Positions 22,066 to 26,720 of a stretch of 37,498 nucleotides of DNA are shown here, one piece after another. The notes under the pieces were generated by a model. That model saw nothing but the letters and a program-made list of their open reading frames with translations, was not told where the DNA came from and searched no databases. The stretch's first letter is position 1, and every line of letters begins with the position of its first letter. Source of the DNA: an uncultured Elusimicrobium sp. Its GTDB lineage: Bacteria; Elusimicrobiota; Elusimicrobia; Elusimicrobiales; Elusimicrobiaceae. Position numbers and translations under genes: made by a program. The DNA is taken from the NCBI GenBank assembly GCA_947305555.1, contig CAMZDW010000007.1, forward strand, positions 1-37,498. The letters run 5' to 3'.

Positions 22066-23433
22066 ATGAAATTTAAAACGGTTTTCGTGTGCCAAAAGTG
22101 CGGGTTTGAAGCTCCTAAATGGGCTGGTAAGTGCCCCGATTGTGGGGAGTGGAATAGCTTGGTGGAAGAAGTCAAGCAACAGGAAAGTAAAAAAGCACCT
22201 GCCCGCACGCGCAGCTTTACGGATTTTTCTTCGGAAGTAGTAAAATTGTCAGAAAGTAAAGCGGTGCATGAAGCCCGTATCCAAACTCATCTTACCGAAT
22301 TTGATCGCTTGTTGGGGGGAGGCCTTGTCAAAGGGCAACTGACGCTTTTGGCCGGCGCGCCCGGTATTGGCAAATCCACCCTCATGCTACAAGTAGCAGC
22401 CGAGCTTTCTAAGCAATTCAAAGTGCTTTATATTTCCGGGGAAGAAAGCACCGGCCAAATCTCCGGCCGTGCGCAACGGTTGGGTGTCAACGGTGATAAT
22501 ATTTATTTGCTGTGTGAAACGGATATTCAAAAAGTAGTGGAAGCGGTAGAAAATATCAAACCCGAAGTGTTGATTTTGGACTCCATTCAAACGGTATATC
22601 ACCCGGAATTTACCTCCTCAGCCGGAACGGTGGCCCAGGTGCGAGAGTGCACCAGCGAACTAGTACGATTGTGTAAGCCCAAAGGAATTATTACGTTCGT
22701 TTTAGGACACGTGACTAAGGATGGAGAGTTGGCTGGGCCGAAAATTTTAGAGCATATGGTGGACTGTGTGTTGTATTTTGATACGGAAAAAGACAATGTG
22801 CTCCGGCTACTACGCCCGCATAAAAATCGTTTTGGTTCTACGGGAGAAATTGGTCTTTTTAAAATGACGGGAAAGGGGTTAGAATCAGTAGAAAATGCCA
22901 GCGAATATTTTGCCCAAACTTCGCGTCAAAGTGCACTGAAAGGGCGTGCTTATTCGCTCGCGTTAGAAGGTTCCCGGCCGATTTTAACCGAAGTACAAGC
23001 GCTCGTTTCTCCCACGCGTTATCCGTTTCCGCGTCGTGTGGCTACGGGGATTGATTTGAACCGCTGTTTAATGCTTTTTGCGGCGCTGGAAAAACACATT
23101 GGTTTGCCGCTAGACAATAAAGATATTTTTGTCAGTTTGGCCGGGGGCGTAAAACTGAAAGACCCAGCACTTGATTTGGCTGTTTGCGCGGCGGTGATTA
23201 GTTCGTGCAAAGATATTGCTTTGCCGCATGATAGTCTATTTATGGCCGAAGTGGGCATTTTGGGTCAAGTAGCTAAAGTTCCACTTGTAGACCGTCGGTT
23301 GGATGAAGCCCAACGCCTTGGATTTAAGAAAGCCTATGGGGCTGTTGTCACTAAGACCGAAAAACAAAAACTTAAAGAAATGACACTACTTGAACTAGCC
23401 GACCTGAACGATTTGACGATGAAGTTAAGATAA
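22066..23433 (+). CDS. radA: DNA repair protein RadA (Sms)
   Basis: 455 residues: zinc finger Cys9, 12, 23, 26 (CQKCGF and CPDCGEW), RecA-like core with Walker A GAPGIGKST (97-105), the RadA-specific KNRFG motif (HKNRFGSTGEIGLF) and a Lon-protease-like C-terminal domain with VSLAGGVKLKDPALDLAV. It promotes branch migration in recombination. It starts two bases after the mlaD stop and is the last gene of the run; only a weak AGGG/CCCT inverted repeat (near 23463-23478) follows. Confidence 0.97.
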   Translation: MKFKTVFVCQKCGFEAPKWAGKCPDCGEWNSLVEEVKQQESKKAPARTRSFTDFSSEVVKLSESKAVHEARIQTHLTEFDRLLGGGLVKGQLTLLAGAPGIGKSTLMLQVAAELSKQFKVLYISGEESTGQISGRAQRLGVNGDNIYLLCETDIQKVVEAVENIKPEVLILDSIQTVYHPEFTSSAGTVAQVRECTSELVRLCKPKGIITFVLGHVTKDGELAGPKILEHMVDCVLYFDTEKDNVLRLLRPHKNRFGSTGEIGLFKMTGKGLESVENASEYFAQTSRQSALKGRAYSLALEGSRPILTEVQALVSPTRYPFPRRVATGIDLNRCLMLFAALEKHIGLPLDNKDIFVSLAGGVKLKDPALDLAVCAAVISSCKDIALPHDSLFMAEVGILGQVAKVPLVDRRLDEAQRLGFKKAYGAVVTKTEKQKLKEMTLLELADLNDLTMKLR

Positions 23434-23522
23434 CCGTAAGAATAAGGTGCTAATAAAATTCAAGGGATTGATACCCTAAAATGAAAAGTTATTTTCTTAC
23501 ATGCTCACTAAAGGAAATTTTT

Positions 23523-23779
23523 ATGAAGAAACAGCCGATAGTGAGAGCCGGATTTCTTATTTTTGCTTTATTTATCCTATCCCATTGTTTTGCTTTGCTC
23601 AGATAGAAGCAACTATAAACACAGAACTTGCTAATAGATTGGTTGCTGCGGATGTGCAAAGTAAAGTTTTTGTCGCTCTGTCGAAAGATGATTGGGAAAT
23701 GTTTTGGAATATATACCAACAAGAACCTCGTATTGTAAATTTATCTTTTAGTACTGCTCGCAAGTACCCCGAACGTTAG
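23523..23779 (+). pseudogene. Frameshifted, truncated exported protein
   Basis: From ATG 23523 (ribosome binding site AAAGGAAA) the frame reads MKKQPIVRAGFLIFALFI, then LSHCFALLR and a stop, a full signal peptide with nothing behind it. The downstream frame, which opens at 23501, continues FAQIEATINTELANRLVAAD to a stop at 23779. The two join at a tandem duplication of five bases (TTTGC TTTGC, about 23590-23600): removing one copy gives an unbroken signal peptide ending CFA followed by QIEAT. The reading frame then ends within a hairpin of the following repeat cluster (CCC GAA CGT TAG). The parent protein is not recognised; its style (signal peptide ending FA-Q) resembles the exported protein at 11374. 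Confidence 0.6.
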
Positions 23780-23902
23780 TTCGAGGGGTGGAGCGTGCGA
23801 ACCCGCTACTAGAAAACTTTGTTTTTTGGGTAGTTAGTAGCGGGCAAAATCAAGCGGAGCTGAGATTTTGGAGCAAAAGAAACCCCGAGCGTGAGCTCGG
23901 GG
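23767..23902. repeat. Cluster of four hairpins bounded by related CCCC/GGGG palindromes
   Basis: H1 23767-23788: CCCC-GAAC-GTTA-GTTC-GA-GGGG. H2 23802-23844: CCCGCTACTA with TAGTAGCGGG, 23-base loop. H3 23845-23870: CAAAATC-a-AGC-GGA-GCT-ga-GATTTTG. H4 23883-23902: CCCC-GAGC-GTGA-GCTC-GGGG. H1 and H4 share one design with each other and with 36059-36080. There is no coding frame. The structure recalls REP/BIME-like or other small palindromic elements. The rest of the 616-base gap 23434-24049 holds the pseudogene before it and, after 23902, about 90 bases with no feature seen before the yacL promoter. Confidence 0.6.
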
Positions 23903-23994
23903 AGTGTCATTCGTTAGAGAGAAGGTTTGCTCCCTATAAGTGGGTTCTTATACCGCACGCGTTCTAAAAAAAATTCCTCCATATAATCAAAAAG

Positions 23995-24008
23995 TGCTAA
24001 AATATAAT
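23995..24008 (+). promoter_or_regulatory. -10 region of the yacL operon
   Basis: TGC-TAAAAT (23995-24003) overlapping TATAAT (24003-24008); the predicted start is near 24015, just before the leader hairpin. Confidence 0.5.
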
Positions 24009-24018
24009 AGTATATCTA

Positions 24019-24030
24019 GGGGTGCGCCCC
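24019..24030 (+). promoter_or_regulatory. 5'-end hairpin in the yacL leader
   Basis: GGGG-TGCG-CCCC a few bases after the predicted transcription start, then GTAATTTTTT and the ribosome binding site GGAGGA. The hairpin plus T-run also resembles an attenuator. Confidence 0.4.
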
Positions 24031-24049
24031 GTAATTTTTTGGAGGATAA

Positions 24050-24994
24050 ATGCCGATTTGGATTTTTCGTATTGCTACGTTAGCAGCTTTTCCATTTCTT
24101 ACCTACAATTTTATCAAACCAGACTGGATGACTTTTTTAGGAGGTCTTCTTTGTGGGGCGATTGTTGTAGCCGGCGAAGTGTTATTTAAACGCTTACGCC
24201 TAATCAAAATTATGATTGCTTGCACGGGCCTTATTTTAGGCTATGTGCTTTTTGTGTTATTTGATTACGGAATACACAATTTTTTCCCGGCGGATGTTTC
24301 TTGGTGGAATGTGCACGCCTTTAAAGCGGAAATTCTATTGATTGTTTTCGGGGTACTTGCCTGCGTATTTAAAGCGCGTGATTTGGAAGGCCTTTCTTAT
24401 ACGGGACACCACCTAAAAGTGGCGGATTTATCTGCTCTAATGGATGGGCGCATCATTGACTTGTGCGAGATTAATTTCCTTTCCGGAGTTATTGTGCTGC
24501 CAGTATTTGTGTTGGACGAACTGAACAAAATGGTGGCTTCCAAAGATCCCTTGGAACGTGCGAAAGGCCGCCGAGGATTGGACGTGGCCACTCGGCTGCA
24601 GGAGTTAAAAGAAATCACGACCCGGATTACTAACAAGAATCCAAAAGGCGCTACGCTGGAAGAAAAAACAGTAGCGCTTGCTAAAAATTTAGATGCTGAA
24701 ATTGTGACGTTGGATTTTAATATTAGCAAAGCTGCTTTGCTTAAAAATGTCATTGCCTTAAATGTAGCGGATTTGGCTACAGCTCTTAAACCAGTGGTGT
24801 TGCCCGGGGAAACCATGTCCTTGTTCATCATGAAAGATGGAAAAGAGAAAGAACAGGGAATCGGATACCTGGATGATGGAACCATGGTCGTTGTTGAAGA
24901 AGGACGTAAACATATTGGCAAGCGGGCGGAAGTTTCGGTTTATTCTATTTTGCAAACTTCTTCCGGACGGATGATTTTTGCCAAAATTAAATAA
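24050..24994 (+). CDS. yacL: YacL-like membrane PIN/TRAM domain protein
   Basis: 314 residues. Four hydrophobic helices in about 1-125, a PIN nuclease-like domain about 140-255 (LMDGRIIDLCEINFLSGVIV, VFVLDELNKM, RAKGRRGLDVATRLQE, AEIVTLDFNISKAALLKNV) and a C-terminal TRAM domain about 265-314 with GIGYLDDGTMVVVEEGRKHIG. PIN acidic residues (Asp in MDGR, Glu in LDEL, Asp in TLDFN) are kept. YacL proteins are suspected RNases; their role is not established. It is next to ispD as in Bacillus. Confidence 0.92.
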   Translation: MPIWIFRIATLAAFPFLTYNFIKPDWMTFLGGLLCGAIVVAGEVLFKRLRLIKIMIACTGLILGYVLFVLFDYGIHNFFPADVSWWNVHAFKAEILLIVFGVLACVFKARDLEGLSYTGHHLKVADLSALMDGRIIDLCEINFLSGVIVLPVFVLDELNKMVASKDPLERAKGRRGLDVATRLQELKEITTRITNKNPKGATLEEKTVALAKNLDAEIVTLDFNISKAALLKNVIALNVADLATALKPVVLPGETMSLFIMKDGKEKEQGIGYLDDGTMVVVEEGRKHIGKRAEVSVYSILQTSSGRMIFAKIK

Positions 24995-24997
24995 CTT

Positions 24998-26149
24998 ATG
25001 AAATCAACTCAGGGTTTTTTTGCTTCAGCGGTAATTGTGGCAGGCGGTAGCGGAAGTCGTATGGGCCGTCCAAAGCAAATGTTGCCGCTAGGGGGAAAAC
25101 CAGCGCTAGTTCACACGATTGAAGCTTTCAAAAAGGTCCCACAAATCGGCGAGATTATTGTGGTCACTCCACCCGAAAATCGTGCCGTATTAAATACCTA
25201 CTTTTCAGGATTAATTTTCGTAGACCCAGGAAGCACACGATTGGAATCTGTTAAAAATGGTTTCTATAAAACTTCGTCATCTGCTGCAGTAGTTGCGGTG
25301 CATGATGGAGCGCGTCCTTTAGTAAATCCCGTCCGAATTGCCGACTGCTTGCAAGCCGCCCAAGCATACGGCGCGGCTGTTTTAGCGGTACCGGTAAAAG
25401 ACACAACGAAAGTTGGAAAAGATGGTTTTGTTTCCCAAACGTTGGATCGTTCTTCTTTATGGGCGGCGCAAACGCCGCAAGCCTATCGTCGGGAAATATT
25501 GGAATCAGCTTTGGAAAAATACGGCCACGAAACGGATGCTACGGATGAATCACAATTAGTGGAAAAAACAGGTGTGCAAGTTCGTTTGGTTCCTTCGGAC
25601 TATAAAAATAATAAAATTACCACACCAGAAGATTTAATTTTTGCGGAGGCTCTTTTGAATCGTCAAACTATGCTTCGTACGGGTTTTGGTTTTGATTTGC
25701 ACCGGCTGGAAGCCGGGCGCAAATTTATCGTGGGAGGAATAGAAATTCCACACACCAAAGGTTTTTTGGGCCATAGCGATGGGGACCTGGTGCTTCATGC
25801 GCTGTGTGATGCTATTTTAGGGGCACTTTGTGCCGGAGAAATTGGTATTTTCTTTCCTCCGACAGATGAAAGTATCAAAGGCATTTCCAGTGTTACAATT
25901 GCAAAAAAAGTGCTGGAGGTAGTGCGTAGCCATCAAGCGGAGATTGTACATCTGGATGCAACCCTCATTACGCAGGAACCCAAAATTAAACCGCATTACG
26001 AAAAAGTACGTGCTAGCTTGGCTTCCATTTTTGAGATTCCACTAGAAAATATTAGTTTTAAGTCGAAAAGCCACGAACATGTGGGTGAAATTGGCCGCGG
26101 AGAAGCTGCGATGTGTCATGCGGTTGCTACGGTAAAAATTAGTGAGTAG
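24998..26149 (+). CDS. ispDF: Bifunctional IspD/IspF (MEP cytidylyltransferase and MECDP synthase)
   Basis: 383 residues, a fusion of two steps of the MEP isoprenoid pathway. Residues 1-225 are IspD: VIVAGGSGSRMGRPKQMLPL (13-32), VHDGARPL, AAQTPQAYR, with ATDESQLVE. Residues 227-383 are IspF: zinc ligands in GFGFDLHRL (Asp233, His235) and LVLHALCDA (His267), GHSDGD, and the C-terminal SKSHEHVGEIGRGEAAMCHA. The two steps are not consecutive (IspE lies between), but the fusion is well known in alpha- and epsilonproteobacteria and others. It starts three bases after yacL. Confidence 0.96.
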   Translation: MKSTQGFFASAVIVAGGSGSRMGRPKQMLPLGGKPALVHTIEAFKKVPQIGEIIVVTPPENRAVLNTYFSGLIFVDPGSTRLESVKNGFYKTSSSAAVVAVHDGARPLVNPVRIADCLQAAQAYGAAVLAVPVKDTTKVGKDGFVSQTLDRSSLWAAQTPQAYRREILESALEKYGHETDATDESQLVEKTGVQVRLVPSDYKNNKITTPEDLIFAEALLNRQTMLRTGFGFDLHRLEAGRKFIVGGIEIPHTKGFLGHSDGDLVLHALCDAILGALCAGEIGIFFPPTDESIKGISSVTIAKKVLEVVRSHQAEIVHLDATLITQEPKIKPHYEKVRASLASIFEIPLENISFKSKSHEHVGEIGRGEAAMCHAVATVKISE

Positions 26150-26156
26150 GAGAATT

Positions 26157-26720
26157 ATGAAAAAATATCATTGGTTATTTTTAGGATTTGTCCTTCTGGT
26201 CAGTGCCTGTGCTGGAAATTCAAATAAAAAAGTAACACAGGGAATTGATTATTCGCGCTATCCCTACCGGGAAGCTTATTACGAATTTACTTCGCCGGTT
26301 CCTATGAATAATAATTTCGTTCCGCCCGAAGAAAGTACGCCCGCTGTGGAGGAAGAGACTCTGGGAGAAGATGAAGATTTTACTTCTGAAAATTTAACTA
26401 GTTCGTATCGGAATTATGGAGATGTAGTTGCTACCGTGGCTACTCGCAAGTTTAAGCTGGGAGAACAGGCTTCCCGTCAAGAAATGACGGCTTTAATGAA
26501 AGCGGTGGAATCTGCTTATTCCCAAACTCTTCGTACATACCGCCCTAGTGGATTTACCTATTCGCTTAGTAGTGTGGGTGCAGTGAATCCTCTTTCTGAG
26601 GTGCAAGTGTACTGTCGTATGAGTGAGAATTCAGCAAATCAAGTAGGGCAATCTGCTTGTACGCAATTTTTTAATTCAATCCGAACCCGTTATATACAGC
26701 TTATGCAAGAGGCCAAATAA
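26157..26720 (+). CDS. Putative lipoprotein, unknown function
   Basis: 187 residues from the ATG at 26157, preceded by AGGAGA; an upstream in-frame ATG at 26142 lies inside ispDF and would spoil the signal sequence. Lipobox LLVSAC puts the lipidated Cys at residue 18. After it come a linker rich in Glu (VEEETLGEDEDF), then a folded part with FKLGEQASRQEMTALMKAVE and two later Cys (CRMSEN, SACTQFF) that could form a disulfide. No known domain recognised. It is tightly placed between ispDF and cysS. Confidence 0.82.
   Translation: MKKYHWLFLGFVLLVSACAGNSNKKVTQGIDYSRYPYREAYYEFTSPVPMNNNFVPPEESTPAVEEETLGEDEDFTSENLTSSYRNYGDVVATVATRKFKLGEQASRQEMTALMKAVESAYSQTLRTYRPSGFTYSLSSVGAVNPLSEVQVYCRMSENSANQVGQSACTQFFNSIRTRYIQLMQEAK

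Follow-up and report, generated by a model that had tools for sequence, protein, structure and literature searches.

A probable remnant of an acquired exported-protein gene, broken in frame and ending in a PATE-like mobile element, in an uncultured Elusimicrobium

Between a radA/sms-like gene and a gene for a PIN/TRAM-type protein, the window analyzed here (a whole contig of 37,498 bp; the draft genome to which it belongs has 60 contigs totalling 1.36 Mb and is 79.94% complete) carries an insert that holds a mobile element and two overlapping reading frames, the latter with no detectable relatives in the collections searched. We consider it probable that this segment is the remnant of an acquired orphan gene for an exported protein, broken in frame and cut at its 3' end, i.e., a pseudogene. 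In the proposed course of events, this lineage would have gained a small orphan exported-protein gene at the site that separates radA from the PIN/TRAM gene, and a short tandem duplication (of TTTGC or of the neighbouring 5-bp pair) in or near the signal-peptide region would have thrown the signal peptide out of frame. A palindrome-associated transposable element (PATE) related to IS200 would have inserted into the 3' end of the gene or immediately next to it, and the remaining frame would now run into the PATE and stop there. That the gene, presumably a pseudogene now, was once intact we infer from its two frames, since no unbroken allele and no relative was found. Nothing that was found points to a reversible or regulated break. 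The features of the region are collected in Table 1.

Table 1. Features of the insert and its two neighbours, in window coordinates.
Feature	Position	Strand	Remarks
radA/sms-like gene, left neighbour, 455 aa	22066..23433	+	Zn-ribbon and AAA_25 matches
Insert, about 507 bp net	23434..23957		missing in the three nearest relatives
Overlapping open frame with putative mature part (about 23597-23751)	23501..23779	+	tail from about 23752 is mobile-element sequence
Putative signal-peptide frame with Shine-Dalgarno sequence	23523..23606	+	ends at TAG 23604
Second 5-bp tandem pair	23573..23582	+	inside the frame overlap
TTTGC TTTGC tandem pair	23589..23598	+	sole copy in the window
PATE-like element, about 160 bp	23752..23910	+	two near-terminal hairpins, inner stem, AAAATC/GATTTT stem
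PIN/TRAM-type protein gene, right neighbour	24050..24994	+	TRAM domain match

An earlier note on this DNA had placed the signal peptide and the mature part of one protein in different frames, and this placement was confirmed. The ATG at 23523 (+) opens MKKQPIVRAGFLIFALFILSHCFALLR in a frame that ends at TAG 23604-23606, and the rest is held by the 92-aa ORF at 23501-23779 (+), which contains ...CFAQIEATINTEL... and has its stop codon at 23777-23779. The view that these are the parts of a broken exported-protein gene also held up when the segment 23434-23751 was compared with 3000 of its own dinucleotide shuffles, none of which gave the combination of a signal peptide, a Shine-Dalgarno (SD) sequence and, in a second frame, an open run of 50 codons or more. 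A signal-peptide-like ATG arose in 24 of the 3000 shuffles, 4 of these with an SD, and an open run of 90 codons was obtained in 8 of 3000 shuffles on the plus strand and in 46 of 3000 when both strands were counted.

The start sites were compared by their predicted anti-SD pairing, which is -5.7 kcal/mol for ATG 23523 and -0.6 kcal/mol for ATG 23501, against a median of -6.3 for 29 ORF starts; only 3 of these 29 have an SD as weak as that of ATG 23501 or weaker. The SD of 23523 is not exceptional when taken alone, since one of equal or greater strength is found at 20% of 671 plus-strand ATGs. The combined filter for signal peptide and SD is passed by 5 of 670 plus-strand ATGs of the window. 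Apart from 23523 itself, these are two pilin-type starts, one ATG just inside ORF 26142-26720 and the ATG that opens a histidine kinase gene. Together, the shuffle and start-site results make it likely that the segment is a former or present gene. The promoter and terminator scan was uninformative, with one promoter-like site (23468-23495) against 1.5 expected in shuffles.

Codon usage separated the frames in the mature part and did not do so in the signal-peptide part, which is a caution against over-confidence. Across 23597-23752 the mature frame scored -0.06 bits per codon and the two remaining frames scored -0.35 and -0.56, and across 23523-23594 the signal-peptide frame scored -0.106 versus -0.028 for the alternative frame. 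Relative to shuffles, the mature part stood at the 97.5th percentile and the signal-peptide part at the 85th. Relative to in-frame pieces of the window's own genes, the two parts ranked at the 2nd to 4th percentile (the mature frame at only the 2nd), and among off-frame pieces they ranked at about the middle. The low score of the mature frame would fit foreign or decayed coding and would also fit a non-gene.

These scores bear on a quite unlikely alternative, namely that the 92-aa ORF is itself translated from ATG 23501, or that the segment was never a gene and the signal peptide is a T-rich coincidence. ORF 23501-23779 is open without any change, the codon scores show no preference for the signal-peptide frame with both parts scoring like off-frame sequence, T-rich codons yield hydrophobic peptides in more than a single frame, and homologues were not found in the collections searched, all of which agrees with this alternative. 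It is opposed by the near absence of an SD at 23501, where that of 23523 is normal, and by the failure of all 3000 shuffles to produce the full combination.

The earlier note had the two frames join exactly at TTTGC TTTGC. The pair does lie at 23589-23598, but the exactness was not upheld, as the signal-peptide frame and the alternative frame are both open across 23523-23603 and any indel of the right size within that stretch would separate them. This overlap of about 80 bases, together with the second pair at 23573-23582, renders the junction ambiguous. A third 5-bp tandem pair lies beyond the overlap at 23658-23667, and the presence of three such pairs (23573-23582, 23589-23598 and 23658-23667) within about 95 bp amounts to a local excess in the 523-bp insert. 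Over the window as a whole, 5-bp tandem pairs are as common as in shuffles (33 versus 33.0 +/- 5.4 (s.d.) in 20 shuffles), and the TTTGC pair is therefore unremarkable. A slippage-type indel, as had been suggested, is a fair reading of the frame break.

In the opa genes of Neisseria, known for pentanucleotide phase variation, the pentanucleotide repeat is placed in the signal-peptide region. The segment described here likewise has its 5-bp unit where the signal peptide of an exported protein would be encoded; it differs in having two units instead of at least five, and in that no family was found. The suggestion of a phase-variable switch, in which slippage between one and two TTTGC units would toggle secretion of the protein, was thus poorly supported, and we regard it as highly improbable. 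A 5-bp unit would shift the frame, the product would be exported, and phase-variable proteins mostly face the environment of the cell according to the available excerpt of a survey (PMC3711429), which counts in favor of a switch. Published surveys, in the excerpts available, call pentanucleotide tracts phase-variable from at least five units (the PhasomeIt cut-off; PMC5953494, PMC6321876), and the two units present here make phase variation unlikely. Further points against it are the chance-level number of 5-bp pairs in the window and the nature of the gene, which is an orphan whose 3' end falls inside a mobile element. We likewise give very little credence to the specific form of a low-copy reversible switch, in which, very short as the repeat is, the presence of one or two 5-bp units would decide whether a lineage-specific small protein is secreted.

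The reading of the segment as the remnant of an orphan gene was accompanied by negative searches for relatives. The 92-aa ORF matched only itself in 66 genomes of the genus (E <= 0.01) and in 340 genomes of the phylum (E <= 0.001), and it had no match in genome_contigs, viral_contigs, phages or plasmids; the scans of genome_contigs and viral_contigs depend on exact short peptides and are insensitive to distant relatives. There was no match below E 0.02 in Pfam, PHROGs or NCBIfam, and the best in PDB was no better than 0.14. At the DNA level, 23434-23751 returned nothing below E 0.5 from the fetched loci (the window's own excluded), and no internal repeats were detected in 23400-24060 at default settings. 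A few weak candidates were rejected. The tblastn search of the 92-aa ORF against the fetched loci gave a best E of 0.007 (G029, 26% identity over 72 residues) followed by 0.012 (G018), and the signal-peptide frame alone gave a best E of 0.056 against the same loci; these were deemed chance. Weak matches to the 92-aa ORF in 4 of 40 other genomes (G018, G003, G029 and G006, E 0.03-0.1), all four of which are represented among the fetched loci, were also set aside as chance.

The left neighbour, for which the name radA would follow from its Zn-ribbon and AAA_25 matches, shows 92% identity to its counterparts in the three nearest relatives. The right neighbour is present in 65 of 66 genus genomes; the search returned TRAM and no PIN match for it, and the PIN part of its name is what we assume from the usual architecture. 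Its closest named relatives are in MAGs labelled uncultured Elusimicrobium sp., with others labelled Elusimicrobiaceae, Elusimicrobiales or Candidatus Avelusimicrobium, several of them from rumen or gut. The gap between the two genes measures 616 bp in the window versus 105-112 bp in G054, G064 and G018, so that about 507 bp were gained in the window. The left part of the insert (23434-23751) has 33.6% G+C compared with 44.3% for the window, and a strip of about 45 bp separates the element from the conserved region upstream of the PIN/TRAM gene.

Thirty loci around the PIN/TRAM gene were compared, the window's own among them, and 7 of these had no radA in the stretch. In the 22 other loci with radA upstream, the gap was 105-168 bp in 20, the two exceptions being G022 (300 bp) and G048 (735 bp). 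The 735-bp gap holds a gene on the opposite strand that is pilin-like by eye. Among 75 loci from genome_contigs, which are partly the same genomes, 43 gaps were measured. Forty of these fell within 0-168 bp, and the other three came to 239, 300 and 742 bp; the remaining 32 loci gave no gap value, as 31 lacked radA in the stretch and 1 lacked the gene start. A gene that is pilin-like by eye was also seen in the 742-bp gap. The gaps in L053, L099 and L030/L070 hold different material in other species, twice a pilin-like gene (by eye). Given this varied material, the site between radA and the PIN/TRAM gene seems to accept insertions.

The last codons of the 92-aa ORF, from about 23752, and its stop codon at 23777-23779 fall within a dispersed element. 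With its 3' end inside such an element, the gene shows the second lesion or truncation looked for in a pseudogene. The earlier note had named further decay of the downstream frame as a sign that would weigh against it; this is seen at the 3' end, inside the IS200-related element, but not in the preceding part, where the mature part is free of internal stops up to the element and decay is accordingly not advanced.

Evidence for the dispersal of the element came from DNA and covariance-model searches. With 23434-24049 as the query, matches (E <= 0.01) were obtained in 30 of 61 genus genomes, own genome included, many of them in 23752-23911 and some elsewhere on the query, and the copies in G070 and G044 show 84-85% identity over about 160 bp. 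Folded as single-stranded DNA, the copy in the window reaches -40.2 kcal/mol (z = -7.03), and in an alignment of 11 copies compensatory changes keep 16 of 43 predicted pairs. A covariance model built from these 11 copies, the window's being one of the seeds, matched 59 of 66 genus genomes at E <= 0.001, with many of the listed matches weak. Among the matches listed, 26 in 14 of the 66 genomes reached at least 100 bits, the 11 seeds being included by construction, and the window's copy, itself a seed, scored 150.1 bits at 23745-23917. The own genome had one further covariance-model match, outside the matches listed. No match to Rfam was found for 23400-24060, which includes the window's element copy, up to E = 1. 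The PATE-like family is recorded at 23752-23910 of the window and in the loci L007, L008 and L142-L155.

The element has near-terminal palindromes, contains no transposase and is too short to encode one. Its ends are clearly similar to those of Y1_Tnp-bearing elements in 2 of 6 stretches compared. In G060:C1 the right end matches at 86.7% over 45 nt and the left at 80% over 40 nt, and in G001:C9 the right end matches at 88.9% over 36 nt with a weak left end (72%, E 0.033). The Y1_Tnp stretch of G076 gave a weak left-end match alone (73%, E 0.033), and those of G052, G020 and the second of G060 gave no end match to the element. Of the 66 genus genomes, 13 gave a Y1_Tnp match at E <= 0.001 (12 above the cut-off); the window's own, about 80% complete, gave 0 matches. 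Altogether, the family fits an assignment to IS200-related PATEs. An empty site was sought with the G057 flanks in 10 genomes, where the flanks were too diverged for an exact site, and the boundaries 23752 and 23910 are therefore good to a few bases.

Several observations concern the family beyond the window. Related elements (L018, L019, L021 and L064, in G052, G067 and G063) keep the outer hairpins and differ in the middle, which resembles the 3' end of a transposase gene by eye. Many element matches in G063 and G067, and some in G052, are at contig ends, and such elements may thus break assemblies. In a sample of the best copy per genome (L142-L155, the window's included), 7 of 14 copies passed a terminator test directly upstream, a few more would do so by eye, and the window's copy failed; the background was 141 of 2100 for random stretches and 21 of 106 for stretches that follow ORFs. 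A preference of the element for sites after terminators is suggested.

The draft state of the genome also raises the alternative of an assembly or binning error or a minority allele, whereby the short exported protein would be uninterrupted in the species and only this assembly would contain the 5-bp duplication. We judge this unlikely. The genome is incomplete and no stop interrupts the mature frame ahead of the element, as this alternative would expect. Against it, both neighbours are intact, each aligning over its full length with its counterpart in the nearest relative (radA 1-455, PIN/TRAM 1-314), and the 3' end lies in a mobile element irrespective of the duplication. To our knowledge, base-calling errors do not typically take the form of a 5-bp tandem duplication, which also counts against it.

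The available excerpt of the GeneTack survey (PMC3711429) gives sequencing errors, orphan pseudogenes, overlapping orphan genes and programmed frameshifts as the likely sources of frame breaks that do not cluster. The remnant proposed here resembles the orphan frameshifted pseudogenes in that excerpt (singleton 'fs-genes') in having overlapping frames one indel apart and no relatives found, and it differs in two ways, as its 3' end falls within a mobile element as well and, judged against the nearest relatives, all of the segment is inserted DNA. PATEs, related to the IS200/IS605 group, are described in Haloquadratum in the available excerpt of PMC3119063. The present family is like them in its near-terminal palindromes, a length too short for a transposase, Y1_Tnp-like ends in the same genus and dispersed copies. 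Unlike the haloarchaeal PATEs of that excerpt, it occurs in Elusimicrobiota and has conserved inner stems with compensatory changes. A further difference is that half of the sampled Elusimicrobiota copies (7 of 14) follow a terminator-like hairpin; the window's copy does not.

The gene was apparently imported, the insert being missing in the three nearest relatives, and it looks like an ordinary dead gene and not an on/off switch. Two copies of a short repeat where a frame breaks are what chance would be expected to give and carry no implication of phase variation, which is a caution for similar cases. The IS200-related PATE family in one gut Elusimicrobiota genus is a by-product of this analysis that is modestly useful and more reusable than the broken gene; open frames can terminate in its members, and draft assemblies may be interrupted by them.
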